NCBI GenBank assembly: GCA_002256995.1 | Contig: NCGX01000002.1 | Span: 124,001-188,000 of the forward strand | Length of the DNA: 64,000 nt | Origin: Hydrogenophilales bacterium 16-64-40 | GTDB taxonomy: Bacteria > Pseudomonadota > Gammaproteobacteria > Burkholderiales > Thiobacillaceae | Direction of reading: 5' to 3' | Part shown: in pieces, positions 9,075 through 27,432 of the stretch | How the letters are laid out: each line of letters begins with the position of its first letter | Position numbering within the stretch: the first letter of the stretch is position 1 | Program-made: the position numbers and the translations under genes | Notes under the pieces: generated by a model | Databases searched by the model: none | The model's input: the letters and a program-made list of their open reading frames with translations, nothing else | What the model was told of the DNA's origin: nothing

Positions 9075-9075
9075 C

Positions 9076-10116
9076 TCAACGCCCACCCATAGTCATGCTC
9101 AGGCCCAGACGCTTCGCGACGGGTGAACCAATCGGGTCTTCGCGCGTATGAAGATGGAATACTTCCCCGGGGCGATCCAGCGGTCGCAAGGGGGATTCGG
9201 GATGAAACGGATTCAGGCGTTCCGGCACATCTCGCCAGACACGATCCCGGAAGGCCGCCGCAAGCACGTCCAAATCGATGGTCTGCAGGCCCGCCGTAGA
9301 TGCGGCTGAAACGGCGCCTTCGAGCACCTTCACCACATAGTCCATCAGGCCGTAGCTCGCTATGAGCAGTCGGCGCGCGAGGTTCGCTTCGTACAACGGC
9401 GTTTCGGATCTCAGGGGTAGTCGCTCGCCCAGCGCCTTCAGGATTCCCCGGAATTCGTGGAAATCTGCCGGATCCTCGAGTGAGAAAGGCGAAACCCGGA
9501 TCCGCTCGGAAAATCGACGCGCCAACTGCTCGTTACTGTTAACCACGAATTCAGCAGCGGGCAAGCCGCATCCCACCATACCGACACGCGTGTCCTCCAG
9601 GAAATTCTTCAGCCAGTCCGTGACATCGCGGAAGCTGGATAGCGTTGGCGCATAAAGGAGGTGATGGAACTCGTCCAGCAACAGCATCTCGACGCCACAG
9701 CGCGTGAAAAACTCATGAAGCCACGTCGTTTTCTCGGGCGCTGTCCCGCGGTGCGCATTCTTGCGCCCAAGCGCCTCCAGGATCGCTCCAGCCAGGCTTT
9801 TAGATGTCGGCGAGGAGGGTACCGTCACGAGCAATACGGGAATGTGCGTTCGTTCCGCTTCGTGCACGCGCGGGAATGCAGCGCTATATGCACGAACGAT
9901 CGTGCTTTTGCCCGCGCCCGACGGCCCGGAGATCAGGAGGCCACCACCCATGCCATGCGTGCGGCGCCGTTGGTGCAGGTCGGCTATCCGATACATCGCA
10001 GTGCTGAACCGCACGTGAGGTAGCGGGTCCATGACCAGCTTGTATCCGGGACAGATGCCGGGCGTGCTGGAGGCACTTCGGGCCGAGTAGCGCGTCATCA
10101 AGTTAACGGGATCCAT
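9076..10116 (-). CDS. tniB: TniB/TnsC-type AAA+ transposition regulator
   Basis: A 346-residue AAA+ ATPase with Walker A GPSGAGKS at residues 64-71 and Walker B MLLLDEFHHLL at about 140. It fits the TniB family, which assembles on target DNA and links the target-selection protein to the transposase. The start is the ATG at 10116, preceded by AAGGGG; it lies inside the end of tnsB, so the two reading frames overlap by 14 bases and are probably translationally coupled. In Tn7 the same role belongs to TnsC. Confidence 0.9.
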   Translation of the reverse strand: MDPVNLMTRYSARSASSTPGICPGYKLVMDPLPHVRFSTAMYRIADLHQRRRTHGMGGGLLISGPSGAGKSTIVRAYSAAFPRVHEAERTHIPVLLVTVPSSPTSKSLAGAILEALGRKNAHRGTAPEKTTWLHEFFTRCGVEMLLLDEFHHLLYAPTLSSFRDVTDWLKNFLEDTRVGMVGCGLPAAEFVVNSNEQLARRFSERIRVSPFSLEDPADFHEFRGILKALGERLPLRSETPLYEANLARRLLIASYGLMDYVVKVLEGAVSAASTAGLQTIDLDVLAAAFRDRVWRDVPERLNPFHPESPLRPLDRPGEVFHLHTREDPIGSPVAKRLGLSMTMGGR

Positions 10117-12076: not shown

Positions 12077-12692
12077 CTTCGCCCTCCTTGCCAACGAATA
12101 CGGGGGTGTCGCCCGACATTGGCAGGCGCAAGTCCATCTTGAGCATGCCCCCGGCAATGAGCCTGGGTGTCATCCCGCGGCCAAGTATAGAATCGCAGAG
12201 ACGAAAGGGGATCGGGCTGTCCCCCAGCATCTGTAACAATCGCCGTTCGGTCCAATCGCCAGCTTCAATGTGATGAACGAGATAGGACAGCGTGCGCAGG
12301 TTCGTCTGCAGGGCCTCTGGACGAACGTCCTCGTTGGTGATGAACCGCAGATCCAATTTGATCCGCAGGTAGTGCTCAGCGATTGCTGTGAATTTAGCTA
12401 CGACCTCTGGCCTGGACAGTTTGGCAGCTGTCTTCACTTCCACATGGACTCGCTTCCCGTTCACGAGCACGACTTCGAAGTCCGGGTAATACGTGCGAGT
12501 GGTCGTGCCAAACGCATAGTGGATTTCCGCCGGTTGTTCTCTGTAAGTCAAAACTCCCGGGGAGAACTCCAAAAGGAGGATTGCGTCCCGTTCGAGCAGC
12601 GACTCCCATGCGACCATGCGGCCAAGTTTTGCTGATGGGTAATAACCGCGGAATCGCCGTCCGCGGCGAGTTACAACCTTTCTAGCAAGCAT
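12057..12692 (-). CDS. tnsA: TnsA-type endonuclease subunit of a heteromeric transposase
   Basis: A 211-residue protein with the TnsA nuclease signature: a Glu in WESLLERDAI, then YYPDFEVVL (Asp) and HVEVKTA (Glu-x-Lys), matching the catalytic E, D and ExK of Tn7 TnsA. TnsA cuts the 5' strands at the element ends, so transposition is expected to be cut-and-paste. The domain order ends with a winged-helix-like region around RRLLQMLG. The ATG at 12692 follows GGAGAAAACG. It is the first gene of the tnsA-tnsB-tniB-tniQ set, all overlapping or nearly so. Confidence 0.9.
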   Translation of the reverse strand: MLARKVVTRRGRRFRGYYPSAKLGRMVAWESLLERDAILLLEFSPGVLTYREQPAEIHYAFGTTTRTYYPDFEVVLVNGKRVHVEVKTAAKLSRPEVVAKFTAIAEHYLRIKLDLRFITNEDVRPEALQTNLRTLSYLVHHIEAGDWTERRLLQMLGDSPIPFRLCDSILGRGMTPRLIAGGMLKMDLRLPMSGDTPVFVGKEGEDATLLF

Positions 12693-12904: not shown

Positions 12905-12929
12905 GGGCAAGCCGATGGCTTGCCCTTTT
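12905..12929. terminator. Strong hairpin just after the XRE regulator gene
   Basis: GGGCAAGCC (12905-12913) and GGCTTGCCC (12917-12925) form a perfect 9-bp stem with a 3-base loop. A T-run follows only on the plus strand (12926-12929), so it is a canonical terminator for rightward transcription. For the leftward XRE gene, whose stop is at 12928, it is at best a weak terminator or an RNA-stabilising end. Confidence 0.5.
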
Positions 12930-13356
12930 ACATTTTGGGTACCTCCGCTTTCGCAGAATGGCCGCTGTCGCTGGGAAGACGCTTGGAAAAAGCCGCGCCC
13001 ATCTCTTCCGGGATTCGCAAGGCGATATCGAGCAATTCGAGCTGGAGGGGATGCAGGCTTCCCAGTTGCGGTCGCAGGCGTTTCAGGAATTCGTACTCCA
13101 GGAGGCTCGACCGAGCCGGAAGCGAGACTTGCCGGCACGAATCACGCAGCGCTCCTGCAAGTCTGTTCTGCTCATCGTCGTTGAGCTGAAGCCCGCGAAT
13201 TAGGCGACGTATGAAATCTTGGCGGGGTGGTCCCTTTTCGCTTCGCTCAAGCGCAGAAAGGTAGCTCGGCTCATAGCCGAGACGCTCTGCCAACTCGATT
13301 TGCTTCAAACCGCGCGAGACGCGGAATTCCTTAAGTAATAACGAAAATGGGCTCAT
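12928..13356 (-). CDS. XRE-family helix-turn-helix regulator
   Basis: A 142-residue protein with a Cro/C1-type HTH at residues 8-62 (KQIELAERLGYEPSYLSALERSEKG) and a helical C-terminal part of unknown role. I take the ATG at 13356 (MSPFSLLLKEF); the frame runs 84 bases further but those codons look like promoter sequence. Only 235 bases and a hairpin separate it from tnsA, in the same direction. XRE repressors often accompany Tn7-like elements and restriction systems; it could control tnsABC or the flanking operon. Repeated AT-rich motifs upstream of its start are candidate operators. Confidence 0.8.
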   Translation of the reverse strand: MSPFSLLLKEFRVSRGLKQIELAERLGYEPSYLSALERSEKGPPRQDFIRRLIRGLQLNDDEQNRLAGALRDSCRQVSLPARSSLLEYEFLKRLRPQLGSLHPLQLELLDIALRIPEEMGAAFSKRLPSDSGHSAKAEVPKM

Positions 13357-13385
13357 GCTCACTCCCCGATCCGCGAAGGAGTGTA

Positions 13386-13462
13386 CAGTTAAATGCGAAT
13401 GCGGTAAACGTAACTTATTGTTTACTAAGCGAAAATACAAATAGTCGCAACGGTAAATTGCG
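13386..13462. promoter_or_regulatory. Candidate operator or transposase-binding repeats upstream of the XRE gene
   Basis: Three related motifs lie in tandem: CAGTTAAATGCG (13386-13397), CGGTAAACGTAAC (from 13402) and CGGTAAATTGCG (13451-13462). The second is part of a dyad GTAAAC-N10-GTTTAC (13404-13425), the third of CGCAA-N7-TTGCG (13446-13462). Their position suits autoregulation by the XRE protein; iterated sites are also what a Tn7-type end would carry. Confidence 0.4.
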
Positions 13463-13719: not shown

Positions 13720-14736
13720 TCAATCGCCAGCTATGGTCTCTGGGTCGATAACCGCACGCCCCTTTACTGACTCGACATACTGGGCCCACCGCTCGTCGTA
13801 AATGCCTCGCGACATCGGAATTATGTCATCCACAGCAAAGTGATCTTCTTCTCGATCATAATCATCCACACCGTATGGCAGGATTACGCCGCCCACATCG
13901 GTCAGTACAAAGCGATTGTGGAGCGGATCCTCTCGCACCGCTTTTTTGAGGACTACAAGCCGGACCGTTACGCCTGCTGGAATAAGGGCAGGCAGATCAG
14001 AACGGGCCTTGTGCAGAATATCCGCGGCAACATTTCGTTCCTGTTTTAGACGCTCTCTCTCTTCGTGCTCATTGCTCGGCCGTTCATGCTCCTTGAACTC
14101 GCGATCGACACCCGTCACAAGAGTAATGAGAGGGTGCGGAGAAACCGCCCTTGGAAGTGCGGCGGATTGGCGAACGATTTCAGCGAAAGTGTCCTGAAAC
14201 CGTTTCTTCCCTGGATCGAAGTACGGATCAATGATGTGGATTTCGCTCGCCACCTGCAAAATTGGACGGAGAGCGGCACCAATTTCCGCTGCCGATTTCC
14301 TTGTTGTTTTTACCGTTGGCAACCACCAGTGCTTCTCCCGAATGTCGTCGACACTCTTCTCGGTGATGATGTCTGGATGGGGTGGGGCCGATTGTTTGGA
14401 CGCGAATATCGCGTGAAACGGCCGGGCCGTGTGCTCCTTTATTGCTTCATCCAGCCACGCCACGCTGTACGTCAAGTCGATCCGGCGTGGGACCATGCAA
14501 TCGGTCAAAAGCTGAAGATACGCGTCAAGAATGGGTTGGCTACTTACCACGTCCGGATGACCATCGTCATAATCGAAGCGTGCGAGGAATTCACCATAGA
14601 CTTGGCCCTTCCAATCTTTGGGAAAATCAGAAACCAACCGGCGGTGGTCCAACCCAAATTGCCCAACGCAACGTCCGAGACCGGCAAGCGCCCAATCCAC
14701 AACAAGAGCAGGCTCCAGCGCATATTCATAGATCAT
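13720..14736 (-). CDS. Protein of unknown family with a weak PLD-like motif, partner of the DUF3696 ATPase
   Basis: A 338-residue soluble protein, last gene of the operon. The C-terminal half has a strand IHIIDPYFDPG (about residue 188) and HNRFVLTD followed by a glycine-rich turn (about 280). This resembles one half-site of a phospholipase-D-type nuclease (HxKx4D), but with Arg in place of Lys, so the assignment is tentative. The N-terminal 170 residues match nothing I know. Its start overlaps the stop of the ATPase gene by four bases (ATGA), which implies co-translation and probably a complex. ATPase-plus-nuclease pairs are a common anti-phage layout. Confidence 0.6.
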   Translation of the reverse strand: MIYEYALEPALVVDWALAGLGRCVGQFGLDHRRLVSDFPKDWKGQVYGEFLARFDYDDGHPDVVSSQPILDAYLQLLTDCMVPRRIDLTYSVAWLDEAIKEHTARPFHAIFASKQSAPPHPDIITEKSVDDIREKHWWLPTVKTTRKSAAEIGAALRPILQVASEIHIIDPYFDPGKKRFQDTFAEIVRQSAALPRAVSPHPLITLVTGVDREFKEHERPSNEHEERERLKQERNVAADILHKARSDLPALIPAGVTVRLVVLKKAVREDPLHNRFVLTDVGGVILPYGVDDYDREEDHFAVDDIIPMSRGIYDERWAQYVESVKGRAVIDPETIAGD

Positions 14737-16973
14737 TCGTCACCTCGCCGCTTAGCGTCAACGCGAGCCCGAATCTCTTTCGGCAATGCCTCATACATCC
14801 GTTCCGGGAAAAAGCCACGTGGCCAACGCCCCACAAACTTGCCACTCTCGTCGATGGCGATTGGATGAATTACCACTTGCTCAGCGTCCGATCGCTCAAC
14901 GTAGAGGACATTTATGTCCTCTGGGGAGACCCCGGCGATGCCTGGCGGCAATTCGCCTTCCGAGGTTTCTCGGATTCTTCGTAACAGACGCAGGATCAGG
15001 TGCTCGCTGTGGGTTTCGATCAAGAAACTAATGCCATTCTCTTTAGAACCCTTTATCAGCAGGTCACCAAGCCCGACCTGAACAGCAGGATGGATATGCA
15101 GCTCAGGCTGTTCTATCGCCACCAGTGAGGCCGAAGGCTCAAGTGCGGCAACCACTACAGGCAGCACCTGCGAAATACCGATGCCCACGTCACGCGGCTG
15201 AACGCGCATGCCGGTGTCGGCCTCGATGAGATCAAGCCTGAGTTTTTCCGGGGTATCCGCCAGTTTGCGCAGTAGCTTGGGATCGCTGCGAACACCCGCA
15301 TCCGGGTCTGCTGCGCGGAGCAGCCAGTTCAGCATCCCGACATCAACCTCCTTGAATGCGCGTCGCTCCAGTTCATATCCGGTGGCAAGCTTGTCTTTGT
15401 GGGCCATCCACTCACTCACCTGGTCGACCAAACTCGCTTCACCGGTTAGCAAGCTTTCCCAGGCAGCCGTGCCATCTGCCCAGCGTGCTTCATCAGGGGT
15501 CAGTGCAGCCTCGAATCCCCGCTGGGGCACGTTACGAATCGGGCCAAGGTAGCGCAGTTTGCGCAACTGGTCGCGAATCACCATGGCCGGACCGACAACC
15601 ATGGACGACAGGAAGGCAGTGAATTCGCGCGTGATGTAGATGTTTGCCGCACCGCCCTTGGAGGAGCCTGGAATAGCCAGCAGCTGTCCGAGGTGCGGAA
15701 GCGCGCTGTCAAAGCCCGTCAGCCATTGGCGCAAGCCCTGACCCGGACTCTCCATGCCGGCCTCTCGCACGTTATAGAGCATCGTGCCCAGCACGGAGTA
15801 GGCCATTGAGTTCTCTGGCTCGTCATCCCCGTCGAACTGTTCGCTTGAATCAGTTACCTCTGTGGGGTCTTCCGGACTTGCGCTCCGCAGAAAGTCTGTA
15901 GCGAAAAACGCTTTTTTACTTGCGGGCGCGTCTTCAATATCACCTCGATCCACCCAGCCATCCAGATCGCCTAATGCGTAGAGATCCTCCACAATCGTGT
16001 AACGCAGAAATATGGGATTGTCTTTGTTCAGGCGAATGGCCACATCGCGTCCGTCTTCCGATGCGGTGATGCGCGCAAGCCACTCGCCATTCGCCCCCGC
16101 CTCGTAGCCGACCACCACTGCAGCCTGCTTCACGTCACTCCAGCCCACCTCTAGCTGAATGCTTACCGTCTCGGTCCGGTCACGCGTTTCCTGAACCAAA
16201 TTGTGGAAATCCCAGATTCCCTGTTCGTCGAAGGTTTGGCCTGCCTGCCACTCCTCCCACGGCTCAGGCACCAAATCCGGCAGGCTGGCACGGTTAAGCT
16301 CGAGCTCAAGCTTGATACTGATACGGCGTGACAGGTCGCGCTGATGCACCAGATTACGGAACCCGCCCAGGTCAACGAAGTCGCCGCCATACAGCGTCCG
16401 ATCCGGATTGGCGTTTCGGCGCTCAAGGATCTCACGCACGTACTGCATTGCTTGCAGGATGGTGCTTTTGCCGGCGCTGTTGGCGCCGAAGAGCAGGGTG
16501 ACGGGTGCCAGCTCGATGCGAATGCGTTCGCCCACCCCCTTGAAGTTTTCCAGCTCGATGGCTTTGAGGCGCGGCGGCAGTTCGGACCCCTCGCGCTCGC
16601 TGCCGGCCGGAGAGTCGAAGAACTGGAGAAAACGCTCCAACGCCTCCTTGGAATCGATCTCCAGCGCCCGTCCATATTCGATTTCGTTCTCGCCCCGATT
16701 CTTGCGCTTGGGGAACTGGCGCATGTTGCTGCCGTGGCGGAACTGTTCCGGCTTCGGGCAGGATACGCCGGGCAGAGCAAGAAACGGCTCGAACCTCACG
16801 TCGGGATGAATGATGACCTGAAGAGGAAACTTCACGCCCTCTGGCTTTTTGTAAATATAGAGGTACTGCCCGGTGGTCGGGGCTTGGTATTCGTCCAGTT
16901 TGGCCGTCTCGTGAGTCCGGGCATAGCCCTGATTGGAGAAAGTCACCCTGATCGGATTAACGCCTATCGCCAT
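14733..16973 (-). CDS. AAA ATPase of the DUF3696/OLD-like group with an extra N-terminal domain
   Basis: A 746-residue ABC-type ATPase. Walker A GANSAGKST is at 163-171, a signature-like GIGISQVLP near 590, Walker B LVAIEQPELHIHP near 612 and the H-loop ETHSEHL near 646; the end FFPERMYE fits DUF3696. The middle holds a long insertion, as in SMC-like proteins. Unusually, about 135 residues precede the ATPase fold, which in this group normally begins within the first few residues. The gene starts 12 bases after hsdS and overlaps its downstream partner. Related ATPases work with nucleases in Septu, retron and OLD-type defence; no nuclease (TOPRIM) domain is seen in this one. Confidence 0.8.
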   Translation of the reverse strand: MAIGVNPIRVTFSNQGYARTHETAKLDEYQAPTTGQYLYIYKKPEGVKFPLQVIIHPDVRFEPFLALPGVSCPKPEQFRHGSNMRQFPKRKNRGENEIEYGRALEIDSKEALERFLQFFDSPAGSEREGSELPPRLKAIELENFKGVGERIRIELAPVTLLFGANSAGKSTILQAMQYVREILERRNANPDRTLYGGDFVDLGGFRNLVHQRDLSRRISIKLELELNRASLPDLVPEPWEEWQAGQTFDEQGIWDFHNLVQETRDRTETVSIQLEVGWSDVKQAAVVVGYEAGANGEWLARITASEDGRDVAIRLNKDNPIFLRYTIVEDLYALGDLDGWVDRGDIEDAPASKKAFFATDFLRSASPEDPTEVTDSSEQFDGDDEPENSMAYSVLGTMLYNVREAGMESPGQGLRQWLTGFDSALPHLGQLLAIPGSSKGGAANIYITREFTAFLSSMVVGPAMVIRDQLRKLRYLGPIRNVPQRGFEAALTPDEARWADGTAAWESLLTGEASLVDQVSEWMAHKDKLATGYELERRAFKEVDVGMLNWLLRAADPDAGVRSDPKLLRKLADTPEKLRLDLIEADTGMRVQPRDVGIGISQVLPVVVAALEPSASLVAIEQPELHIHPAVQVGLGDLLIKGSKENGISFLIETHSEHLILRLLRRIRETSEGELPPGIAGVSPEDINVLYVERSDAEQVVIHPIAIDESGKFVGRWPRGFFPERMYEALPKEIRARVDAKRRGDE

Positions 16974-16984
16974 TGTTCTTGTCC

Positions 16985-18118
16985 TTATAACTGCCCTTGA
17001 AATGCCCGCTGTGCGAGAGAGCTGTATAGGGCATCGGCATCGCGGGCCGAGCTGTCCAGCCTCTTCCTCAAGGTCATTAGCTTGTGAAAAATGCCAATAA
17101 ACTTCTCACGCTGTTCGTGTGGTGGAAGGATAAAGCGAACCTGTTCCAAAGCCCCTTTACTTACCATCCCCTTCATACCGTTTGTGGAAGCAGATTGAAT
17201 TCGTGCCTTGGAGTACAGCGTCACCGCGTAAATAAACTCTGGCTCAATACCTGGCTTGGGTGTCAGGGCATTAATCTGCTGGTTGAATGACACTTTTCGG
17301 TCTGTAAACGCTGCGTTGCCGATACAAGATGGGCTTCCCGCGATGCAGGTGACAAGCGTGGAACCTGCAGGTGCCGATCGAGCAACACGGAGTCCCTCCA
17401 GGGATAACCCCTCCGAAGCCTCGGTCAAGAGGTGGGATGGTGTATTGATGTTGTCCGACTTGATCCACTCGATGTGCCCCCCGTAATAAGCGAGATTTTG
17501 GCGTGAAGGGGTGTTGCCTGTTGTTACTGTTGCAAGTTGTGCGACAGGTTTCTCCGGCTGCCCCTTTGAGTTTGTCACGGGGTCACCAAACGAATCATAA
17601 AAAACAGCCTGGAGATACTTGTCCGATTCTTTAATGGTCTCGTAGCGTTTAACACGGATGGCATCAGCCTTGTCGAGGATGGCAGCGATGCGACACTGCT
17701 CATCGTATCCAGGAAGAATCAGCGACAAACCCATCAGTTTGTCACGGCTGACATGCGGAATAGTTGCTCCTGTTGTCGATTGATTGAGTACGCTGAATTG
17801 GTTCTGTAAAAATCTCGCCACGTAGGGTGTAAAGATGCTTCGTTCATCAACAGGCCGAAGGCGTGCGATGGTGCTGCCAATCAACCCCGACAACCCATAC
17901 CCCACTGTCCCCGCGTTAGCACCATCCCATGCAATACAGATGTCGGTTGATTCAACAATTGTGCCCTTTGGATCGTTGGCGTATTTCAACTCGTCGTCGG
18001 AACGCAGGTCTTCAATCTGAATGTAGCGTTCAACGCCTGGTACACTTTCTAAAAAGACTTCTGGCGCTTTTCGTCCTTTTGCCAGGGTGAATAGATCACC
18101 TATTGCTTGGCGCATCAT
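16985..18118 (-). CDS. hsdS: Type I restriction-modification specificity subunit
   Basis: A 377-residue HsdS with two target-recognition domains (about 1-150 and 190-350), each followed by a conserved helical spacer. [19 protein letters not shown] and [16 protein letters not shown] show the half-repeat organisation that lets one subunit bind both halves of a bipartite site. It directs the methylase and nuclease to the recognition sequence, which cannot be predicted from the protein here. It overlaps the hsdM stop by four bases. HsdS usually starts a little longer than here, but no better upstream start is available. Confidence 0.92.
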
Positions 18119-19629
18119 GACAGAAGCCCTTCCAACTCAGTCATATCCGCCTCGATCTCAGACTCCAGCTTTTTCATGCGTGCAAGAATCACTGAGGGCG
18201 GGTCAAATTTCACGTCCTCCTGTACCGACTCCTTGTAGCGGCTGGGCGACAGGTCGTATTTATTGGCACGGATATCGGCTACTGAAACGGCAAACGCCTT
18301 AGCAGTGCGGTTGCTGAAGTCGCCCTTCCTGGCACGCCATTTCTGAAACTGAGCCAGCGCATCGGGCAAGTCGTTTCCCGTTACTGGTTGACGTCTATCG
18401 TCGAGCGAAAGACCGTCGGCTTTGACGCCGTATAACAGCACTTCATCCGTCCGTCCGCCCTTGGTAAAGACCAGGATCGCGGTCGAGACACCGGCATACG
18501 GCTTGAAGACCCCAGACGGCAGCGAAATCACTGCTTCGAGCTGGTTCTCGTCGATCAGGTGCTGGCGCAGCGCGACGTGTGCCTTGCTCGAGCCGAACAG
18601 CACGCCATCCGGAATGATGGTGGCGGAGCGGCCGCCGTTCTTTAGCATGCGCAGGATAAGCGCGACGAAGAGCAGCTCGGTCTTCTTGGTCTTCACCTTC
18701 CTCAACAGCGATGGATGCACGCTTTCTTCGTCCAGGGTTCCCTTGAACGGCGGATTGGCAAGGATGACGTCGAAGCCATCCTCGGCCTGCTTGCCAAATC
18801 TTTCCGGGAAATTCTTGGAGAGGGTGTCCTGGTAGTGGATATCTGGATTCTCGACGCCGTGCAGCATCAAGTTCATGGCCGCAATACGCAGCATGGTCAC
18901 GTCGAAATCGAAGCCGTGGAACAGGCCGTTCTGGATATGCTCGCGATAGGGCTCCAGCAAGTCACCCGGGTAACCCTTGCTACCATCCTCGAAGGTCTCG
19001 ACCAACTCAGGGGAAGAGTACTTCTGACGGAGGTATTCCATGGTGCCAACGAGGAAGCCTGCTGTGCCGCAAGCAGGGTCGCCCACTACTTCGTTGGGTT
19101 TGGGGTCGAGCAGTTCGACCATCAGCCGGATGATGTGGCGGGGGGTACGGAACTGGCCGTTGATACCAGCCGTGCTGAGCTTGCTCAACATGTACTCATA
19201 GAGATCCCCCTTCATGTCGCTGTTTCCCAATGGCAGCAAGCCTATTTTGATGACCGCTGAATTAAGCAGGCTGGCCTTGGGAATCAGGCAGGTGGCATCC
19301 TTCATGTACTCGCCAAAGGTGGTGTCCTTGCCGCCCAGATCGCGCAAGTGAGGAAAAACCAGGTCACGAACATGACGCAGCATTTCTTCGCCGCCGTACT
19401 CGCTCCAGTTCTTCCAGCGCAGACTCTGTTGGTCGGGGGAAAAGTATTTATGCGGCGCCTTTCCGGTGCGTCCAGCCAGCTTCTCGAAGCGGGTTTCTTC
19501 GATGTCCAGCAGGCGGGCAAACATCAGGAAGGAAATCTGCTCGATGACGGTAAGCGGATTGGTGATGCCGCCCGTATGGAACTCGAGCCACAAGCTGTCG
19601 ATGTCGTTTTTAAGTTGGTTGGTAATCAC
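18115..19629 (-). CDS. hsdM: Type I restriction-modification DNA methyltransferase
   Basis: A 504-residue N6-adenine methyltransferase. The N-terminal helical HsdM domain (1-140) is followed by the SAM-binding motif [10 protein letters not shown] (about 184) and catalytic NPPF (about 292); the C-terminal part carries the coiled-coil that meets HsdS. It modifies the host's own recognition sites and forms the M2S core of the restriction complex. It lies 11 bases after the glycosylase gene and overlaps hsdS. Nothing suggests it is broken. Confidence 0.95.
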
Positions 19630-19640
19630 GAAGCGTGTCC

Positions 19641-20318
19641 TTAGGTGATAGTGATGCCGCGTTCGATCAACTCGGAGCGCAGCAGTGCTTTGGCCTGCTG
19701 AAACAGGCGGCGGTTGTCAGGTTCATTAAGCCAGCGCGAAGCACCGGAAGTATGGGGAAAGAAAACGACGGTGCGACCGTTCCAGTCTTCCTTCTGGCCG
19801 ACGAAGCGCTCCAGTCGTGCCTCGCTCGCCTTGCGCCCGGTCAGCTTGAGATAGGCTTTGAGCGGCAGGCCACCGAGCGTGACCAGAACCTGCGGGGCAG
19901 CCAAGCGAATCTGTCCCTCGAAAAACGGCTGGCAGTTGCGGATCATTTCGGCAGACGGCAATACGTCCTCGCGGACTTTACCTGATCGGAGCATCGGCTT
20001 GCTGCCCGGAAAGCACTTGATCACAGCTGACGAGTAAACCAGTTCATCGAAACGTGAACGGGGCACGCCGAGTTCGGCGAAGATCCCCCGAATACCTTGC
20101 CCGGCATCGCCTTGAAATGGCTTCCCCGTCTCATACTCCGTCAGCCCAGGCGCCTGGCCAACTAGCATGACAGGCATGGGACGAACCCCGGAAACGATCG
20201 GGCGCGGCTCCACAGGGGTGGAGCTGCTGCGAGGGTCAACCGGATATTGCGCGAACAAGCCCGCGCATTTGCGGCAGTCGCGCATCCCGGCATCGAAGGT
20301 TTGGTACTGATCAAGCAA
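19641..20318 (-). CDS. Uracil-DNA glycosylase-superfamily protein, family 4-like with an iron-sulphur cluster
   Basis: The 225-residue protein has motif 1 [18 protein letters not shown] (about residues 52-69), close to family-4 GEAPG..E...G.PF.G, and a C-terminal [10 protein letters not shown] in the place of the HPS motif. Cysteines at DCRKC, VIKCFPG and RNCQPF have the spacing of the four [4Fe-4S] ligands. It would remove uracil or another damaged base from DNA. It is encoded inside a type I restriction operon, between rmuC and hsdM, with 11 and 20 bases to its neighbours. The start is the ATG at 20318. Whether it repairs host DNA or acts on modified phage DNA is open. Confidence 0.82.
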
Positions 20319-20338
20319 GATTATTTTTCTCGTATGGG

Positions 20339-22192
20339 TTACGTCAATGCGGGAAGCACTTCGTCATCCGCCGCAACTTCGGTCAGCGCAGTCGGTAACG
20401 TCTTAGTGGGCTTAACGCCCAGTTGCTTGAGCATTTCGGCCTGACGGATCACGTTCCCGCGTCCTCCGGTCAACTTGCTGTGGGCGGAATCGTATTTTTC
20501 CTGGGCCTGCTTGAGCCGGGTGCCGACCGATTCCAGGTCTTCAACGAAACCCACTAGTTTGTCGTAAAGTTCAGCGCCGCGTTTGGCGATGTCCTGCGCA
20601 TTGCGGTTCTGCGCCTCCTGACGCCACAGGTGGGCCACGGTCCGCACGACAAAGAGCAACGTGGAAGGACTGACCAGCAGCACATTTTTCTGCCAAGCGT
20701 CCATAAACATCTCGCGATCATGGGTAACGGCGAGCATGAAAGCTGGTTCGATCGGCACGAACATAAGCACGAAATCGAGCGATTTAAGGCCGTAAAGCGC
20801 TTGGTAGTTCTTGTCCGATAGCCCCTTGATGTGTACACGAACTGAATCAAGGTGACGCTTGGTCGCCCCTTGGCGATCTCCATCTTCTTCCGCCGAAGCA
20901 AAATCCTCGTAGGCGATCAAAGATACCTTGGCATCCACTACAAGGTGCCGCTCTTCAGGCAAGTGGATGACCACGTCAGGCTGGGCGCGGGAGCCATCCT
21001 CGCGGGTATGGCTTTCCTGAACGTCATATTCCTCACCCTTGCGCAGGCCAGAGGCCTCCAGAACGCGCTCCAGCACCAGTTCACCCCAGTTGCCCTGGGT
21101 CTTACTGGAGCCCTTGAGAGCGCGGGTCAGGTTCTTCGCATCCTGGCTCAGGGACTGGTTGAGATCCATAAGCTGGCGTACTTGCTCAGCCAGTGCGGTG
21201 CGATCCTTGCCCTCCTGCACATAGACCTCTTCAACCTTGCCCTGGAATTCCTGCAACTTGGTCTTGAGTGGCTCCAGCAACTGGCCAATATTGGTTTGGT
21301 TCTGTTCAGTGAAGCGCTTGGCCTTCTCTTCAAGAATGTCGTTGGCGAGGCTCTTAAACTGGTTGGATAAGGCCTCCTTGGCTTCCAGCAACAAGGTGAG
21401 TTTTTCCTCAGACTGACTGCGCTCAGCATCGAAACGTGCGTTAAGTTCTGCCAATTCAGTGGTCAGTTTATTAACCTGTGTTTCTGCAGCCTCACGTTGA
21501 GCCTTCTCAACCTGAAATTCGCTGCGCACGGTGGTGAGTGCCTCGCGCTCGCCCTTAAGCTCCGCGTTGACGCGACCCGAGGCTTCGCGAAGATCGGCAG
21601 CCTGCTGCTGGGTCTGTGCCAATAGCTGTTCTGTCTCTGCGAGCTTTTTCTCGAGTACCGAAATGCGGGGCACTTCCGCTTCAAGCGCTGAGCGGCGCTC
21701 ATTGGATTGTTGCAGCTGACCCGATATCGAAGCCAGGGTTTGTTGGGCGCTTGCCAATTCCTGCTCAACCTCAGTAAGACGGGAGGCTGTCGATTGCAGA
21801 GATTGAGATTTTTCAGCCTCGCTCTTCGCCAAGCGGAGAATCTCCTGCTGACTGGTCTGCTGCTGGTCCGAAAGGCTGGCGACCTGCACCTCCAATACCG
21901 GCACCCGAGCGGCACGCTCCGTGAGCTGGGCGCGCTCATCACGAGCGCTGTCCAACGCCTCCCGCCACTCTGCGGCCTGCGCTTTTAAGGCTTCGTGCGC
22001 GCTGTTGAGCTGCACGCGCTCGACCTCGAGGGCACGCACCCTCTCGTTGACTGTCGCGAGCTCAACTGCTGCTTCCGCCCGGCCTCGCGCGGCAGCGGAC
22101 TCAATTTTTCCTCGGATCAGCAGCCAAGTAACCGCCACACCGAAGGCAAGGCCGATCGCAGCACCGACTAGGGTAATGAATTGATTGTCCAT
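20339..22192 (-). CDS. rmuC: RmuC-family DNA recombination protein
   Basis: A 617-residue protein: one N-terminal membrane helix (residues 2-24, FITLVGAAIGLAFGVAVTWLL), a long coiled coil to about 290, and a PD-(D/E)XK-type nuclease fold with TQGNWGELVLERVLEASG, QPDVVIHLPEE and VVDAKVSL. RmuC restrains rearrangements at inverted repeats in E. coli. I choose the ATG at 22192 because it opens the membrane helix; the upstream extension overlaps hsdR. It is 19 bases after hsdR. RmuC genes are sometimes found in type I loci, which suggests processing of cut DNA. Confidence 0.9.
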   Translation of the reverse strand: MDNQFITLVGAAIGLAFGVAVTWLLIRGKIESAAARGRAEAAVELATVNERVRALEVERVQLNSAHEALKAQAAEWREALDSARDERAQLTERAARVPVLEVQVASLSDQQQTSQQEILRLAKSEAEKSQSLQSTASRLTEVEQELASAQQTLASISGQLQQSNERRSALEAEVPRISVLEKKLAETEQLLAQTQQQAADLREASGRVNAELKGEREALTTVRSEFQVEKAQREAAETQVNKLTTELAELNARFDAERSQSEEKLTLLLEAKEALSNQFKSLANDILEEKAKRFTEQNQTNIGQLLEPLKTKLQEFQGKVEEVYVQEGKDRTALAEQVRQLMDLNQSLSQDAKNLTRALKGSSKTQGNWGELVLERVLEASGLRKGEEYDVQESHTREDGSRAQPDVVIHLPEERHLVVDAKVSLIAYEDFASAEEDGDRQGATKRHLDSVRVHIKGLSDKNYQALYGLKSLDFVLMFVPIEPAFMLAVTHDREMFMDAWQKNVLLVSPSTLLFVVRTVAHLWRQEAQNRNAQDIAKRGAELYDKLVGFVEDLESVGTRLKQAQEKYDSAHSKLTGGRGNVIRQAEMLKQLGVKPTKTLPTALTEVAADDEVLPALT

Positions 22193-22211
22193 GATTTTCT
22201 TCCTGTTTTTG

Positions 22212-25200
22212 TTATGGGTTGGCCGGTTGTTCGCTGCCTGGACGGAAGCGGTCAATAACCGTGATCAGTTCTTCCACTGCTGCGTCATCGAATACCCCGT
22301 CGGGTCCATCCGGACTCACTTGGGTGAAAGGCGCTTCATAAAGCTTGTCGAGGGTTACAGCGCCAAATTTCGCAATATGGTTTTGCAACAAGGCCATAAA
22401 TCTCTGCTGTTTTGCCGAAAGTTGCGGATGCCGAGTGAAAAACTCACCAAAACGTTCAGCCACGATCTCAGGCTCCATGCCGACGATCGTTCGGATCGCT
22501 GCCGCCAGATCACCGGCGGTATCCGGATAAAACTCGGTCAGCCAGGCCAGATTGACGTCCGGATGTTGGGTGAGCACCAAGCTGACGAGCGCCGTGAGAT
22601 CGGATTCAGCTACAGGCTCCCGGCGCCGAATCTTGCGCAATATCGGATTGGTTTCGAAGAGGCCCGTAAGTACTTGCTCGACGCGTTGGCGATAGGTCAC
22701 CAATTCCGTCCCTTCAAGTTTTGGAATGTAGCGTCCGAACTCGAATTTGCTGGCATCTTCCCTAACGTCGAGAACACGGGGCTTGCCGCCGACCGTCGGT
22801 CCCACCACACGATGGCGCATAATTCCGCGCAACTCTTCACGCACCGTTTCAAGCGCAGCGACATCGGTTTGCTCAGAAATCAGCTTCCAGAATTCACCAC
22901 TGCGAACCTTCTCAATGGTGGCCAGCTTGTCGCGAACAGCGTTGACGTTAATAGGCAACTGAGCCACGAGGGCGATGAGATCGTCCCGCAGATCGTTGAA
23001 CACAGCGGATTTCTTGAGCAACTCGCCCTCCATCCTGGCAACCAGCAGGTCGAGTTGGTAGGCATGTTCCCAACCGCGCGTGTCGCGCCATTGCATGAGC
23101 GGTGCAATGTCCTTGAGCAGTGAAGCACGCGTCGCAGCACTCAGAGCAGGCAGCACGTCAGGGCGCTGGACATCACGCACCTCGCGCCACTTCTCACGAA
23201 CGGCGATTGTGGTTTCAGGCAGCGCGGCAATGTCAGCCTGCATGAGATTGATGGCGAGATCGAAGGCATCCGGTTTCGCCTTTGTAAGCGCAGCATCGGC
23301 CAGTAGAAGGCGGGTCTCGAAAAGCTTCTGCAGGAGCGATTTGCTGGCCGTTGGATTGGCCTCGCGGTAGCTCTCTTCGAAATAGGCAAAGTTACCCCAG
23401 TGGTCGAAGATGTAAAACTTGCTCTTGTCCTGGCCTAGACCATTCAGGTCAGAGCACAATCGCGTTCCACGCCCGACCATCTGCCAGAATTTCACATAGG
23501 ATTTGACTGGCTTGGCGAACACCAGATTGACGACCTCGGGCACATCGATTCCAGTATCCAGCATGTCTACCGAGATCGCGATGGTGAGCGCGCTCTTCGG
23601 CTCTTTAAAGTCATCGATGAGCTGTTCGGCCCGGGGATCATAGTTGTCAATCACGCGGCAGAACTGGCCGCCGTACTGGGGGTACATCTCGTCGTACAGT
23701 TCGGCCAGCAAGACTGCGTGATTATGATTACGGGCAAAGATGATTGTTTTGCCTGGATGTGAGCCGCTCGCGTCTCGCAGACCGTTCTCCATCAAATTTC
23801 GCAAAATGGCGCGGTTGGTATCCTTGTTAAATACGGTGCGATCCACGTCGGTATCGTCGTAGTCGATGGTTTCCGCGTCCTGCTCGTCTTCTTCGAGTTG
23901 CTCCCGTTGCTCCTTGGAGAGCTGGCTGTACTTGATGCCACGACGCAGGAACTCTGTGGTGTGCGTATAGACTTCGAAGGGCACGAGGTAGGGCGGAACG
24001 TGATTGATCGCTTCCTGGTAGCCGAAATACGACGTCGGGTCGCCGTCTTCACAGCCAAAGAGCTTGAAAGTATTGCGAGCAATGAACTTGACCGGCGTAG
24101 CCGTCAGCCCGACCTGCAAGGCGTCGAAATAGACAAACAGATCGCGGTAACGGTTGTAGATGCTGCGATGCGATTCGTCGGCAATGATGAGGTCGAAATA
24201 GCCGACATCGAACATTTCATAACACTGCATCATCGCCGGGTAGGTGGCGAGATAGATGCGATTGGTCACATCGCCAGCCGTGTTGGTATTGATGTGGATG
24301 CGTGGCTCGCCGGGCAGATACTCCTTGAATACGTCATCTGCTTGCTTACGCAGTTCGCGCCGGTCACAAAGAAAAAGGATGCGCTTGGCCCAGCGCGCGC
24401 GCGAAAGCACATCGCAGAGCGATACAGCTACTCGAGTCTTGCCCGTACCTGTTGCCAATACGATCAGTGTTTTACGGTAACCCAGGCTGAAACGCTCGCC
24501 AATTCGCTTGATCGTCTCGATTTGATACATGCGCCCTGCAATCTCAGGCTTCGGCGCGATTGTGTTGAGTGCCAGCTTTTCGCGGCGCTGGAATATCAAG
24601 TAGTTCAGGCTTTCCTTTGAGTAGAAGCCAAACAGCTTGCGTGGTGTCTGCTTCTGGGTATCGTCCCAGATATGGATGTCAAAGCCATTGGTGTAAAAGA
24701 TGACGGGACGCTGGCCGTGCTTTTGCTCGAGGCCATCGGCGTACAGCTTGGCCTGCGTACGCCCCGCCTCGGCGTCCTTGGCCGTACGTTTGGCCTCTAC
24801 GACGGCAAGTGGCTTGCCATCATCTCCCCATAGCACATAGTCAGCGTAGCCGATGCCTGTCTTGTTGTGGGCCTGGGTAATCTCAATTTCCTGCCCAACC
24901 TGATCGGTCGATTTTCCGTCTGGGGCAACCTTCCAATTCGCCGAGATGAGCATCGCGTCGATCAGTCGTTTGCGGGTTGTGGCCTCGTCAAAGGACAGCT
25001 GCGCTACCGCTGCAGAACCCGCAGACACGAGGTGCTGAAGCTCTTCATCCGTCCGCTTAAATTCGGTTTTCTGCTTTTTGGCTTCTTCGAGCTGCTGCAG
25101 AAGCGCCTGCATTAGCTCCTCCTGCTCGGCGACTTGGGCCAACAGACGTTGCCTGTCACGCTCGAGCTTCTTTGAATCTTCTGGCGGCTCAGGCGCCACA

Positions 25201-25661
25201 TACGTCGCCACGGCCGTTGCTTGACCGGCATCGAACGTGACATAGATCCACCTGGCGATATCAAACGCCTCCCGCACCATCGCGAGGGCGGTTGGTGTGG
25301 TGCCCTGGTTAGCGTGAACCGCTTTGTTGCCGTGCATGCGCAATGCATGCAGCTTGGTCTGAACGACTGGCGGGACACGGGAGCGGAAAGCATCCTCGTT
25401 CAGCAGATCATTCAGATTGGGCTGATAGGGCTTGGGAAGCCTGAACGTGTCATAGACCATATCGACAACCCGCTCTGAAAAAAGCCTGAGCTTTGCGAGG
25501 GCGCTCGCAGGGTCATTGAACGCGTAGTGTTCGGAGAAACCACCCAAGGCAGCGAGATCAGGGCGGCTGTCACGCAGGAATTCGAAATTCCTAGATTGCA
25601 CGACGCCCCCCTCGGCCGAGGTGGCCAAATTTTCCAGCGAGGATGCGGGGGACAGATGCAT
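22212..25661 (-). CDS. hsdR: Type I restriction enzyme, nuclease/translocase subunit
   Basis: An 1149-residue HsdR of the EcoEI-like type. Residues 20-150 form a DUF4145 helical domain, followed by a coiled coil (about 165-210). The nuclease core reads YADYVLWGDDGKPLAVVEAK (about 271-290), the SF2 motor has Walker A LATGTGKT (about 401-408) and DESHRSIYNRY, and a helical EcoEI-type C-terminus follows. It translocates DNA and cuts far from unmodified sites. It is the first gene of the operon and starts 54 bases from the activator gene. A canonical sigma-54 promoter lies in that gap, with a purine-rich AGAAGAAA before the ATG. Confidence 0.95.
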   Translation of the reverse strand: MHLSPASSLENLATSAEGGVVQSRNFEFLRDSRPDLAALGGFSEHYAFNDPASALAKLRLFSERVVDMVYDTFRLPKPYQPNLNDLLNEDAFRSRVPPVVQTKLHALRMHGNKAVHANQGTTPTALAMVREAFDIARWIYVTFDAGQATAVATYVAPEPPEDSKKLERDRQRLLAQVAEQEELMQALLQQLEEAKKQKTEFKRTDEELQHLVSAGSAAVAQLSFDEATTRKRLIDAMLISANWKVAPDGKSTDQVGQEIEITQAHNKTGIGYADYVLWGDDGKPLAVVEAKRTAKDAEAGRTQAKLYADGLEQKHGQRPVIFYTNGFDIHIWDDTQKQTPRKLFGFYSKESLNYLIFQRREKLALNTIAPKPEIAGRMYQIETIKRIGERFSLGYRKTLIVLATGTGKTRVAVSLCDVLSRARWAKRILFLCDRRELRKQADDVFKEYLPGEPRIHINTNTAGDVTNRIYLATYPAMMQCYEMFDVGYFDLIIADESHRSIYNRYRDLFVYFDALQVGLTATPVKFIARNTFKLFGCEDGDPTSYFGYQEAINHVPPYLVPFEVYTHTTEFLRRGIKYSQLSKEQREQLEEDEQDAETIDYDDTDVDRTVFNKDTNRAILRNLMENGLRDASGSHPGKTIIFARNHNHAVLLAELYDEMYPQYGGQFCRVIDNYDPRAEQLIDDFKEPKSALTIAISVDMLDTGIDVPEVVNLVFAKPVKSYVKFWQMVGRGTRLCSDLNGLGQDKSKFYIFDHWGNFAYFEESYREANPTASKSLLQKLFETRLLLADAALTKAKPDAFDLAINLMQADIAALPETTIAVREKWREVRDVQRPDVLPALSAATRASLLKDIAPLMQWRDTRGWEHAYQLDLLVARMEGELLKKSAVFNDLRDDLIALVAQLPINVNAVRDKLATIEKVRSGEFWKLISEQTDVAALETVREELRGIMRHRVVGPTVGGKPRVLDVREDASKFEFGRYIPKLEGTELVTYRQRVEQVLTGLFETNPILRKIRRREPVAESDLTALVSLVLTQHPDVNLAWLTEFYPDTAGDLAAAIRTIVGMEPEIVAERFGEFFTRHPQLSAKQQRFMALLQNHIAKFGAVTLDKLYEAPFTQVSPDGPDGVFDDAAVEELITVIDRFRPGSEQPANP

Positions 25662-25699
25662 AACGTTTCTTCTGCGAATTAATCGAATGCAACACTGTA

Positions 25700-25715
25700 A
25701 GCAATCGCTGTGCCA
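25700..25715 (-). promoter_or_regulatory. Sigma-54 (-24/-12) promoter of the hsdR operon
   Basis: Read leftward the bases are TGGCACAGCGATTGCT: GG and GC are separated by exactly 10 bases and every invariant position of the consensus TGGCAC-N5-TTGCW is present. It ends immediately beside the stop codon of the CARF-sigma-54 activator gene and about 39 bases before the hsdR ATG, with transcription expected to begin near 25689. The match is by eye but complete. Confidence 0.88.
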
Positions 25716-27215
25716 TTACATCCCCACCCCATATTTTTCGAGCCAGTTGGTCAGCGTCTGATAGCTGCCCAGCCCCAGTAACCGCGCCGCTTCCGTCTTG
25801 TTCCCGTGGGCTTGTGACATGGCACGTTCCAGGTAGTGACGGGCGACATCTCCCATTAAATCAGGCAGCAGGAAGCCATCTCCCAACTGCCTACCCAACA
25901 CAGCGTCAGACTTAGGCGGAATACTCACGGCTAGCGCCTCTGTCACATCCTGAGCCGATATCTCACCGCCAGGTGCCCAAATCGACGCCCGTAGAAGGGT
26001 GTTGTTCAGTTCACGTATGTTGCCCGGCCACGAGTGACCAACTAGAAGCTTTCTTGCGGTAACAGAAAGTTTTTTATTCTGATAGCCGGGCTGATTTGCC
26101 GCCTCCAGATTAATTTTGTCCATCAAGGCGTCGATCAGTAGGGAGATGTCCCCCTCGCGCTCCCGCAGCGATGGAAGAAGCAGCACGCCAACTGCAAGCC
26201 GATGAAACAAGTCCTCACGGAAACGCCCTTGCTGTACTTCAACAGACAGCACTCGATTGGTCGCCGCGACGATGCGCACATTGATTTTTCTTGCCCGAGT
26301 CGCGCCTACCCTCGTTACTTCTTGTTCCTGCAAGACGCGGAGCAATCTTACTTGCGATTGCAGAGGAAGCTCGCCGATCTCATCAAGGAATAATGTTCCG
26401 CCGTCCGCCGACTCGAAATAGCCAGCGCGCGCCCCGGTAGCCCCGGTGAAGGCGCCCTTTTCGTGGCCGAACAACTCGGCATCGACCAGTTCACTGGGGA
26501 TGGCACCGCAGTTCACCGTAATAAACGGACCAACAAGGCGCTGGCTAGCCCCATGGATGGCGCGGGCGAAAAGTTCTTTGCCTGTCCCGGATTCGCCCTG
26601 GATGAGAACCGGTACATCTCGCAGGGCCAAGCGATGCGCCATTGCGACAACACGCTTCATCGCAGTGCAACGGTGAATGATGCTCGAGAACTCGGGAGAT
26701 TCTGGTGGCAAGCCTTGAGCCAGCCTTGCGAGTGCGTCATCCACGGATTTTGTGGCTGCCGGCATGAACTCTGCTGCCAGATCAAACGGCACGGCCACGG
26801 TCTTGACGCCCTGCTCACGGGATGACTCGATCAATTCCGCACCGTATTTTGCCTTGGCCAGCAAAATCCAGACTGCGGCCATCGCAGGCGTGCCCGGGCT
26901 CAGGTGGAATACTAAAGACTCTCCGGAGGCAGCCTCCTTAATGCTTCCAACCAGCTTGTCTGCCTCCCTGTAGATATCTTCAAAACTGGTCGGGCTGCTC
27001 AACTTAACTGTATGAGTCGAAACCTCACCGCTGAAACCGTCCGCAAGCCAATCCGCGAATTGCTGTGTCTTAGCCTTGCCGTGATCCGAGAGGATTTCGA
27101 TGCGCCCAAAATCGCGCGCCTGAAGTGCATTGAGGATAGGCCCAGCCTCAGCCGTGGGATCACCTTCTGCAGCGCGAAGGTCTGTGTTTCCTAACCAAGC
27201 GAACAAGATCGGCAT
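25716..27215 (-). CDS. Sigma-54-dependent activator with an N-terminal CARF-like sensor domain
   Basis: A 499-residue three-part activator. Residues 1-165 look like a CARF domain: strand ILFAWLGNTD at the start and HLSPGTPAMAAVWILLA (104-120), the ligand-pocket motif of Csm6/Csx1-type CARF domains. The AAA+ domain has Walker A GESGTGKE (207-214), the sigma-54 contact loop GAFTGA (254-259) and Walker B LFLDEI (275-280). A Fis-type HTH closes the protein (455-495, ARLLGLGSYQTLTNWLEKYG). The plan is that of RtcR, but the neighbours are hsdR rather than rtcBA. Its natural ligand is unknown; cyclic or cyclic-phosphate-ended nucleotides are the known CARF ligands. No strong ribosome site precedes the ATG at 27215. 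Confidence 0.85.
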   Translation of the reverse strand: MPILFAWLGNTDLRAAEGDPTAEAGPILNALQARDFGRIEILSDHGKAKTQQFADWLADGFSGEVSTHTVKLSSPTSFEDIYREADKLVGSIKEAASGESLVFHLSPGTPAMAAVWILLAKAKYGAELIESSREQGVKTVAVPFDLAAEFMPAATKSVDDALARLAQGLPPESPEFSSIIHRCTAMKRVVAMAHRLALRDVPVLIQGESGTGKELFARAIHGASQRLVGPFITVNCGAIPSELVDAELFGHEKGAFTGATGARAGYFESADGGTLFLDEIGELPLQSQVRLLRVLQEQEVTRVGATRARKINVRIVAATNRVLSVEVQQGRFREDLFHRLAVGVLLLPSLREREGDISLLIDALMDKINLEAANQPGYQNKKLSVTARKLLVGHSWPGNIRELNNTLLRASIWAPGGEISAQDVTEALAVSIPPKSDAVLGRQLGDGFLLPDLMGDVARHYLERAMSQAHGNKTEAARLLGLGSYQTLTNWLEKYGVGM

Positions 27216-27334
27216 ATTGGATAAGAAATCGTATTTTTAGATAAAAAATATTGTACGCAAATACCCCGCCATCGTTCGGGTTTCTATAAGCGAATTTTCA
27301 CCCCGTCCTTTCCGAGGACAAGTTGCATCATCCA

Positions 27335-27366
27335 GAAAAGAAAAGGCCAACCTACCTGGTTGGCCT
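27335..27366 (-). terminator. Rho-independent terminator after gyrB
   Basis: AGGCCAACC (27344-27352) and GGTTGGCCT (27358-27366) form a perfect 9-bp stem with a 5-base loop. On the minus strand it is followed by TTTTCTTTTCT, as expected for a terminator of leftward gyrB transcription. It marks the border between core chromosome and the accessory island. Confidence 0.85.
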
Positions 27367-27432
27367 CCCTTTCAATTCTCACGAAATCTAAAGTTTTGGG
27401 AAAAATCTAGATTTCAATGGGATCCTACAAGC

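Follow-up and report, generated by a model that had tools for sequence, protein, structure and literature searches.

A putative self-contained sigma-54 switch, with a CARF activator and an intragenic enhancer candidate, precedes a type I restriction operon and other defence genes

The stretch of DNA analysed here, 64,000 nucleotides of contig NCGX01000002.1 of Hydrogenophilales bacterium 16-64-40 (positions 124,001 to 188,000; hereafter the window), carries a gene for a CARF-domain sigma-54 activator, followed on the same strand by an operon with the complete type I restriction-modification (RM) trio hsdR, hsdM and hsdS. The activator gene, two tandem palindromes inside its coding sequence and a -24/-12 promoter at its stop codon likely constitute a portable switch, in which the palindromes would act as an intragenic enhancer and the promoter would drive the defence operon. 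A ten-year-old guess, that CARF activators may control restriction, thereby takes the form of a precise proposed circuit with base-pair coordinates.

A conserved -24/-12 promoter at the activator stop codon

The site TGGCACAGCGATTGC begins on the base right after the activator TAA, and 39 bp separate its end from the hsdR ATG; transcription is expected to start near 25689. It is the sole exact match in the window. Matches with at most one mismatch occur at chance rate (7 found, 7.41 expected), so that the hexamers alone are weak evidence and the promoter claim rests on position and conservation.

Both were evaluated in homologous loci. From the 268 relatives in named genomes given by a CARF alignment search, the best 80 were fetched (set 1), and 63 of these were usable (activator of at least 480 residues, at least 200 bp downstream), or 64 loci with the window. 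An independent set of 21 loci, with activators of at least 480 residues and less than 90% identical to set 1, came from 33 further loci, 9 of which were at least 90% identical to set 1 and 3 partial or unread (L109, L111, L118). Kinship persists within it: L012 is a seed of the alignment used for the search, L110 and L121 share a genome, and L114, L115 and L116 share a genus.

A site scoring at least 11 lies between -25 and +60 of the activator stop in 55 of the 64 loci. Among 494 other gene ends of these loci a single one has such a site, as do 29 of 6400 shuffles and none of the 64 reverse strands. The first T of the site falls 1-5 bases past the stop in 41 of the 55. The independent loci, on the whole more distant relatives, carry the stop-codon promoter in 11 of 21 cases. 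An earlier note, made from the window's sequence alone, had described a canonical -24/-12 site aimed at hsdR and had suggested a search for other genomes with such a site between the activator and hsdR; the exact site is present and conserved, and such genomes were found. The opposing reading, that the site arose by chance and that the activator has another target, draws on the chance rate of one-mismatch matches across the 64 kb. It is rejected by the recurrence of the site at one position (55/64 versus 1/494, and 11/21 independent loci), which leaves it barely conceivable.

Palindromes upstream of and within the activator gene

A de novo search for motifs in the 150 bp preceding 48 activator genes recovered the palindrome cAcAAaAttTcTTGTa in 44 of them, with a log-likelihood of 219 versus 20-25 in four shuffled sets. 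A scan with weights built from 40 of the 44 upstream sites (L032, L047, L068 and L082 were left out) located a second place for the palindrome within the activator coding sequence, approximately 340-365 bp before the stop. Intragenic palindromes score at least 10 in 40 of 47 set-1 loci and in 8 of 21 independent loci, and the pair region is the best 61-bp bin of the gene in 46/47 and 13/21, respectively. Pairs spaced by exactly 20 bp number 32 among the 47 loci, and upstream there are 28 pairs spaced by 19-21 bp. The proximal palindrome lies 338-370 bp from the promoter in 52 promoter-positive loci (343 bp in the window), a range partly set by the scanned stretch. The element is coupled to the stop-codon promoter: in the independent set it occurs in 8 of 11 promoter-positive loci and in none of the 10 promoter-negative ones. 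The earlier note had missed both the intragenic palindromes and the one upstream of the activator. Another conserved motif, SYQTLTNW in the 3' part of the activator coding sequence, was set aside because it looked like plain protein conservation.

Codon choice provides the second line of evidence. Among 47 activators, the excess of identical codons among identical residues peaks at codons 379-393 (z 7.2; second-highest value elsewhere 1.9). When codon usage is drawn from outside the region and the spike is judged against the remainder of the gene, it reaches z 14.7 (next best codon window 4.0), and restriction of this test to pairs below 60% identity gives z 15.0 (3.7). Rare codons are favoured in the spike, with AGA for arginine in 33 of 47 activators and GCA for alanine in 43 of 47. 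The 11 independent loci with a stop-codon promoter show a synonymous spike of z 9.4 (next best codon window 2.9), whereas the 10 without it give z -0.3; alanine codon 387 is GCA in 11/11 of the former and 1/10 of the latter. Because promoter-positive independent loci spike and promoter-negative ones do not, selection at the DNA level can be distinguished from protein constraint: the DNA of the intragenic element is under selection beyond its coding role. Generic codon bias of AAA+ domains was rejected, given that the palindrome is absent from six other sigma-54 activators of the genome (L002-L005, L007 and L008; a further one, L006, gave no readable frame), and it is also countered by the missing spike in promoter-negative independent relatives.

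The activator itself may bind these palindromes, and because the same palindrome stands upstream of its own gene, autoregulation would be likely. This invites an alternative in which the intragenic stretch controls the activator itself, as operator, roadblock, internal promoter or mRNA structure, and not the downstream promoter. It is consistent with the upstream palindrome, which makes autoregulation likely either way, with the intragenic palindrome retained in three of six set-1 promoter-negative loci (L029, L056, L086), and with the absence of a -24/-12 site on the activator's strand in the 150 bp upstream of all 47 activators. The 8/11 versus 0/10 split of the independent set argues against it; moreover, the negatives L110, L114 and L121 keep an upstream palindrome although the intragenic element is absent, and in L091 and L125 a palindrome lies beside a promoter located elsewhere. 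We consider this alternative improbable and prefer an enhancer that would act on the downstream promoter.

Promoter-negative loci and points against the proposed switch

Displaced promoters were sought in all nine set-1 negatives and in five of the ten from the independent set. Four related Binatia loci carry a site of 17.2-19.3 on the opposite strand, 247-430 bp ahead of the activator gene. It faces a divergently oriented operon with an ATPase and a phospholipase D (PLD)-like gene, and a palindrome (score ~23) stands in between. Two of these operons deviate: in L029 the ATPase stands with a gene of the neighbouring cluster c18, and in L046 the PLD-like gene is split over two frames. All four loci retain the intragenic palindrome. 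L091, with a weak intragenic pair, has a palindrome of 24.3 placed 162 bp before a -24/-12 site of 16.1, ahead of ATPase and PLD genes. In L125, tandem palindromes stand at the activator stop and a site of 14.4 follows ~85 bp further; L093 may be a weaker copy of this arrangement (palindromes 11.0 and 9.3, site 13.6 at ~+103). L121 combines tandem palindromes upstream with a divergent site of 14.2. L114 shows a divergent site of 16.7, but its palindromes of at least 12 stand ~1050 bp upstream of the start and ~1970 bp downstream of it. Only weak sites occur in L110 and L126 (13.2 and 13.3), and the stop-codon site of L056 (9.7) falls just below threshold.

Several observations weigh against the proposed switch. 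Two negatives, L061 and L086, have no alternative site scoring at least 13, and the stop-codon promoter is missing from nine of the 64 loci of set 1 and from ten of the 21 in the independent set. The upstream palindrome scores at least 10 in 41 of 47 set-1 loci but in only 8 of 21 independent loci, the intragenic palindromes are only weak in seven promoter-positive loci, and those of the window are themselves imperfect. Within set 1, promoter and intragenic element co-occur marginally (Fisher p 0.035; 0.053 at a stricter cut) and their scores are uncorrelated (Spearman 0.02). A test of whether the enhancer, and not the stop codon, anchors the promoter gave no support, as the promoter keeps closer to the stop codon (median absolute deviation 1.5 bp) than to the enhancer (4 bp). 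The sampling has its own bias: set 1, as the best 80 of 268, leans towards window-like loci, near-duplicates were dropped by eye (17 for the codon analyses, leaving 47, and 16 for motif discovery, leaving 48), kinship among the loci means that the counts do not stand for separate events, and the -24/-12 weights were set by hand from the consensus.

The activator and its sigma-54 dependence

The N-terminal region (residues 1-144) has the six-stranded, Rossmann-like CARF fold, in keeping with the CARF-like pocket motif that the earlier note read from the sequence. The sigma-54 loop GAFTGA and the Fis-type helix-turn-helix, likewise read earlier from the sequence, agree with the Pfam matches (Sigma54_activat 2.5e-68, AAA_lid_14, HTH_8 1.5e-6). 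PADLOC's RtcR_PspF2--CARF_AAA_HTH model fits nearly the whole protein (E 3.4e-198, 657.7 bits; residues 2-497 versus model positions 2-480/481), and the score against Pfam RtcR (PF06956) stays below the cut-off (18.6 versus 23.1 bits). With rpoN found in the same genome, the enhancer-dependent set of GAFTGA activator, -24/-12 promoter and rpoN is computationally complete.

The pocket motif HLSPGTPAMAAVW spans residues 104-116, with invariant residues judged from 39 sequences. Read from the alignment, there is no positive residue after strand 4 (SPGTPAM; P110 is invariant in the 39 sequences). According to the accessible text of PMC4012209, this residue is typical of most CARF families and mostly missing in RtcR; the window activator thus appears to agree with the RtcR type. 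The rtcBA genes are not adjacent to it, as rtcB lies on contig C64 and the activator on C60. Cyclic oligoadenylate made by a type III CRISPR system of this genome is an unlikely ligand, because two Cas10 models (TIGR02578 and TIGR02577) match nothing in the genome.

The operon and the proposed circuit

Table 1. Features of the switch and of the operon in the window
Feature	Coordinates	Strand	Details	Basis
CARF / sigma-54 AAA+ / Fis-HTH activator, RtcR_PspF2 type	25716..27215	-	499 residues	Open reading frame, Pfam, PADLOC
CARF domain	26784..27215	-	Residues 1-144	Fold
Sigma-54 interaction AAA+ domain	26190..26681	-	Residues 179-342, GAFTGA included	Pfam
Fis-type HTH	25731..25841	-	Residues 459-495	Pfam
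-24/-12 sigma-54 promoter	25701..25715	-	TGGCACAGCGATTGC	Exact match
Palindromic operator candidate	27240..27255	-	TACAATATTTTTTATC; starts 40 bp before activator ATG	
Candidate intragenic enhancer	26043..26078	-	Tandem palindromes AATAAAAAACTTTCTG and CGCAAGAAAGCTTCTA, 20 bp apart, codons ~380-391	
Weak further palindrome, function uncertain	25659..25674	-	CAGAAGAAACGTTATG; score 12.8; over hsdR ribosome site and ATG	
Terminator-like stem-loop between gyrB and activator	27341..27369	-	12 pairs, most of all matches	
hsdR	22212..25661	-	1149 residues	Pfam, PADLOC
RmuC-domain protein, ShdA-like	20339..22255	-		Pfam 1.6e-108, PADLOC
Uracil-DNA glycosylase superfamily protein (UDG)	19641..20318	-		Pfam
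hsdM	18115..19629	-		Pfam, PADLOC
hsdS	16985..18118	-		Pfam, PADLOC
AAA_15/AAA_21 ATPase with DUF3696	14733..16973	-	Recurs behind the switch	Pfam, PADLOC
PLD-like protein	13720..14736	-	One HxR-x4-D motif	Weak fold match to phospholipase D

The gene order given in the earlier note, from the activator to the PLD-like gene, holds throughout (Table 1), and the reading frames from hsdR onwards overlap or lie at most 20 bp apart. As for its remark that the operon has no visible terminator, several terminator-like matches on the minus strand occur inside the operon, for example a 10-pair stem at 17745-17722, but the total is not above chance (13 found, 16.7 expected). As read directly from the sequence, with no prediction tool, the RmuC protein has an N-terminal hydrophobic helix and a long coiled coil; a second RmuC is encoded on contig C43, and the one in the operon probably serves as an accessory copy. 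The operon's PLD-like protein has a conserved HxR-x4-D motif and weak Foldseek matches to phospholipase D enzymes at E 4.4e-4 and weaker (TM about 0.24-0.31), with TrmBL2 ranked first; Pfam matches neither this protein nor the other PLD-like proteins tested.

We infer the direction of control, its inducibility and the sensing of a ligand from these features. The activator would be made from its own promoter, probably repressing itself through the palindrome ~40 bp before its start codon, with the terminator-like stem separating it from gyrB. Its CARF domain would sense a signal of infection or damage, whereupon the activator would assemble on the two tandem palindromes within its own coding sequence, act across ~343 bp and open the sigma-54 promoter directly after its own stop codon. 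The opened promoter would then drive all seven genes from hsdR to the PLD-like gene. The conserved site faces an hsdR-first operon that includes hsdM, in keeping with the previous suggestion that nuclease and methylase are on one switch. The note's further proposals, that a nucleotide may be the ligand and that restriction may be expressed only once induced, are tentative; internal or leaky promoters may contribute.

Ordinary RM systems need standing methylation. This favours an alternative in which the stop-codon promoter is real but a mere boost, and the type I system is constitutive from other promoters as an ordinary RM system. A sigma-70-like site before UDG and hsdM (20347-20320, minus strand) would suit it, but such matches stay within chance (5 found, 6.4 expected). 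Gaps between hsdR and hsdM also argue against it, with a median of 0 bp in 27 loci (a 4-base overlap in 11, more than 250 bp in 2) and 11 bp before hsdM in the window. Because most gaps are near 0 bp, a separate hsdM promoter fits in few of them, though one inside hsdR is possible. We regard constitutive expression as somewhat doubtful, yet as a possibility to be taken seriously. Should hsdM instead be silent until induction, the notion of RM as standing, methylation-first immunity would fail for these loci.

A broader reading extends the proposed switch to a laterally moving, one-gene infection-alarm cassette placed before many unrelated defence systems, with its enhancer written in synonymous positions of the activator gene. 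Where hsdR comes first, the restriction enzyme would appear on alarm while the chromosome is still unmethylated, that is, as induced self-restriction (abortive infection) in place of standing immunity. This extension is speculative and rather unlikely.

Distribution and genes behind the switch

The activator family is patchy. At E 0.001 it occurs in 6 of 149 relatives' genomes, and at E 1e-15 in 22 of the 398 phylum genomes and in 6 of the 369 class genomes, the genome under study included in each count. Carriage by phages or plasmids was considered and set aside: two relatives lie in viral contigs, and seven of 72,556 plasmid records contain one, one of these seven having been examined. In the same-genus relative L034 / L011, the activator frame stops after ~290 residues, with longer copies elsewhere.

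Downstream families were named by searches on representatives and, for the remainder, through BLAST clusters. Of the 61 loci with a readable neighbour, 34 have hsdR next to the activator; elsewhere that place is taken by a TerY-P VWA gene (5 loci), a minus-strand gene (5), a PcfJ gene (3), the ATPase (2) or other genes. Because at most ~9 kb downstream was covered in homologs, counts of gene sets are lower bounds: hsdR, hsdM and hsdS occur together in at least 30 loci, joined by the ATPase in at least 14 and by both ATPase and PLD-like gene in at least 6, window included, and RmuC lies behind the switch in at least 3 (L031, L070 and the window). A CoCoNuT-like superoperon stands behind the switch on a Rhodoferax plasmid, and Schlafen-type proteins are found there beside hsd genes. 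That the same switch precedes defence systems other than restriction had gone unnoticed in the earlier note.

Further arrangements accompany this repertoire. In CoCoNuT-like operons with VWA, PP2C, kinase and helicase genes (L015, L017, L019, L021, L022 and L127), the site starts 18-21 bases before the activator end. A PcfJ-like gene lies behind the same CARF activator and promoter in L038 (11555-18094), L087 and L050; in L038, and according to clustering also in L087, a defence-type reverse transcriptase comes next. The two-gene module of ATPase and PLD-like protein recurs behind the activator, both where the stretch covered includes hsd genes and where it shows none (L050, L053 twice, L091; divergent in L044, L046 and L055).

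Genomic neighbourhood in the window

Left of the operon, Tn7-like transposition genes occupy 7176-12692 on the minus strand: a TnsA-like gene (12057-12692), a transposase with a Mu-transpos_C match just below cut-off (10103-12157), a TniB/TnsC-like gene (9076-10134) and TniQ (7176-9086). An XRE-type helix-turn-helix regulator (12928-13440, minus strand) lies between them and the operon end. The large plus-strand protein at 8-3520, with weak STAND-type NTPase matches below cut-offs (AAA_16, nSTAND3), is possibly another defence gene. On the other side, gyrB was rejected as part of the system, since of the fetched loci no more than L027 and L066 share it with the window.

Comparison with known systems

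PspF, a sigma-54 activator without a CARF domain, has tandem upstream sites that lie between divergent genes, represses its own synthesis and acts on a sigma-54 target. The window activator resembles it in its tandem sites, its proposed autorepression and its sigma-54 target, and differs in the placement of the sites and in its CARF domain.

RtcR shares the CARF-AAA+-HTH architecture, a sigma-54 promoter and an N-terminal CARF domain described as the control domain in the accessible part of PMC9650030, which reports that RtcR lacking this domain activates constitutively. RtcR targets rtcBA and thus RNA repair, whereas the window activator would target a defence operon, with a same-direction cassette, the promoter at the activator stop and the candidate enhancer inside the activator gene. 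The authors of PMC4641369 state that coding conservation kept them from predicting intragenic enhancers computationally; the codon analysis yields an example of a conserved candidate sigma-54 enhancer inside its own activator's gene. Palindrome and stop-codon promoter together offer a handle for finding more defence genes under the same alarm.

The earlier note took the link between RtcR-type architecture and restriction to go beyond prior work. This does not hold, as the accessible texts of PMC4012209 (2014), which ties an RtcR-like family to R-M systems as a prediction, and PMC11090510 (2024) already predict it. The association is common to that R-M family and the present loci; the available text of PMC4012209 describes neither a promoter nor an enhancer or operator. 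No description of a sigma-54 promoter or enhancer for these loci was recognised in the literature searched, which excludes most subscription journals; in PMC2725144, hsdR belongs, in the part available, to a strain genotype. PMC11090510, in its accessible portion, places RtcR homologs before CoCoNuT superoperons that include type I RM and ShdA, and mentions an upstream activating sequence in general without locating one. Those superoperons share with our loci an RtcR-like gene 5' of mixed defence operons, and the L015-type loci and the Rhodoferax plasmid resemble them, whereas Pfam and PADLOC show no McrBC/CoCoNuT gene in the window operon.

Finally, the operon's RmuC protein is similar by description to ShdA of the Shield system, an RmuC-domain defence protein with an N-terminal membrane helix (PMC10270631). 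Shield is reported, in the accessible text of that source, only in Pseudomonas, whereas the RmuC gene of the window lies inside a type I RM operon.
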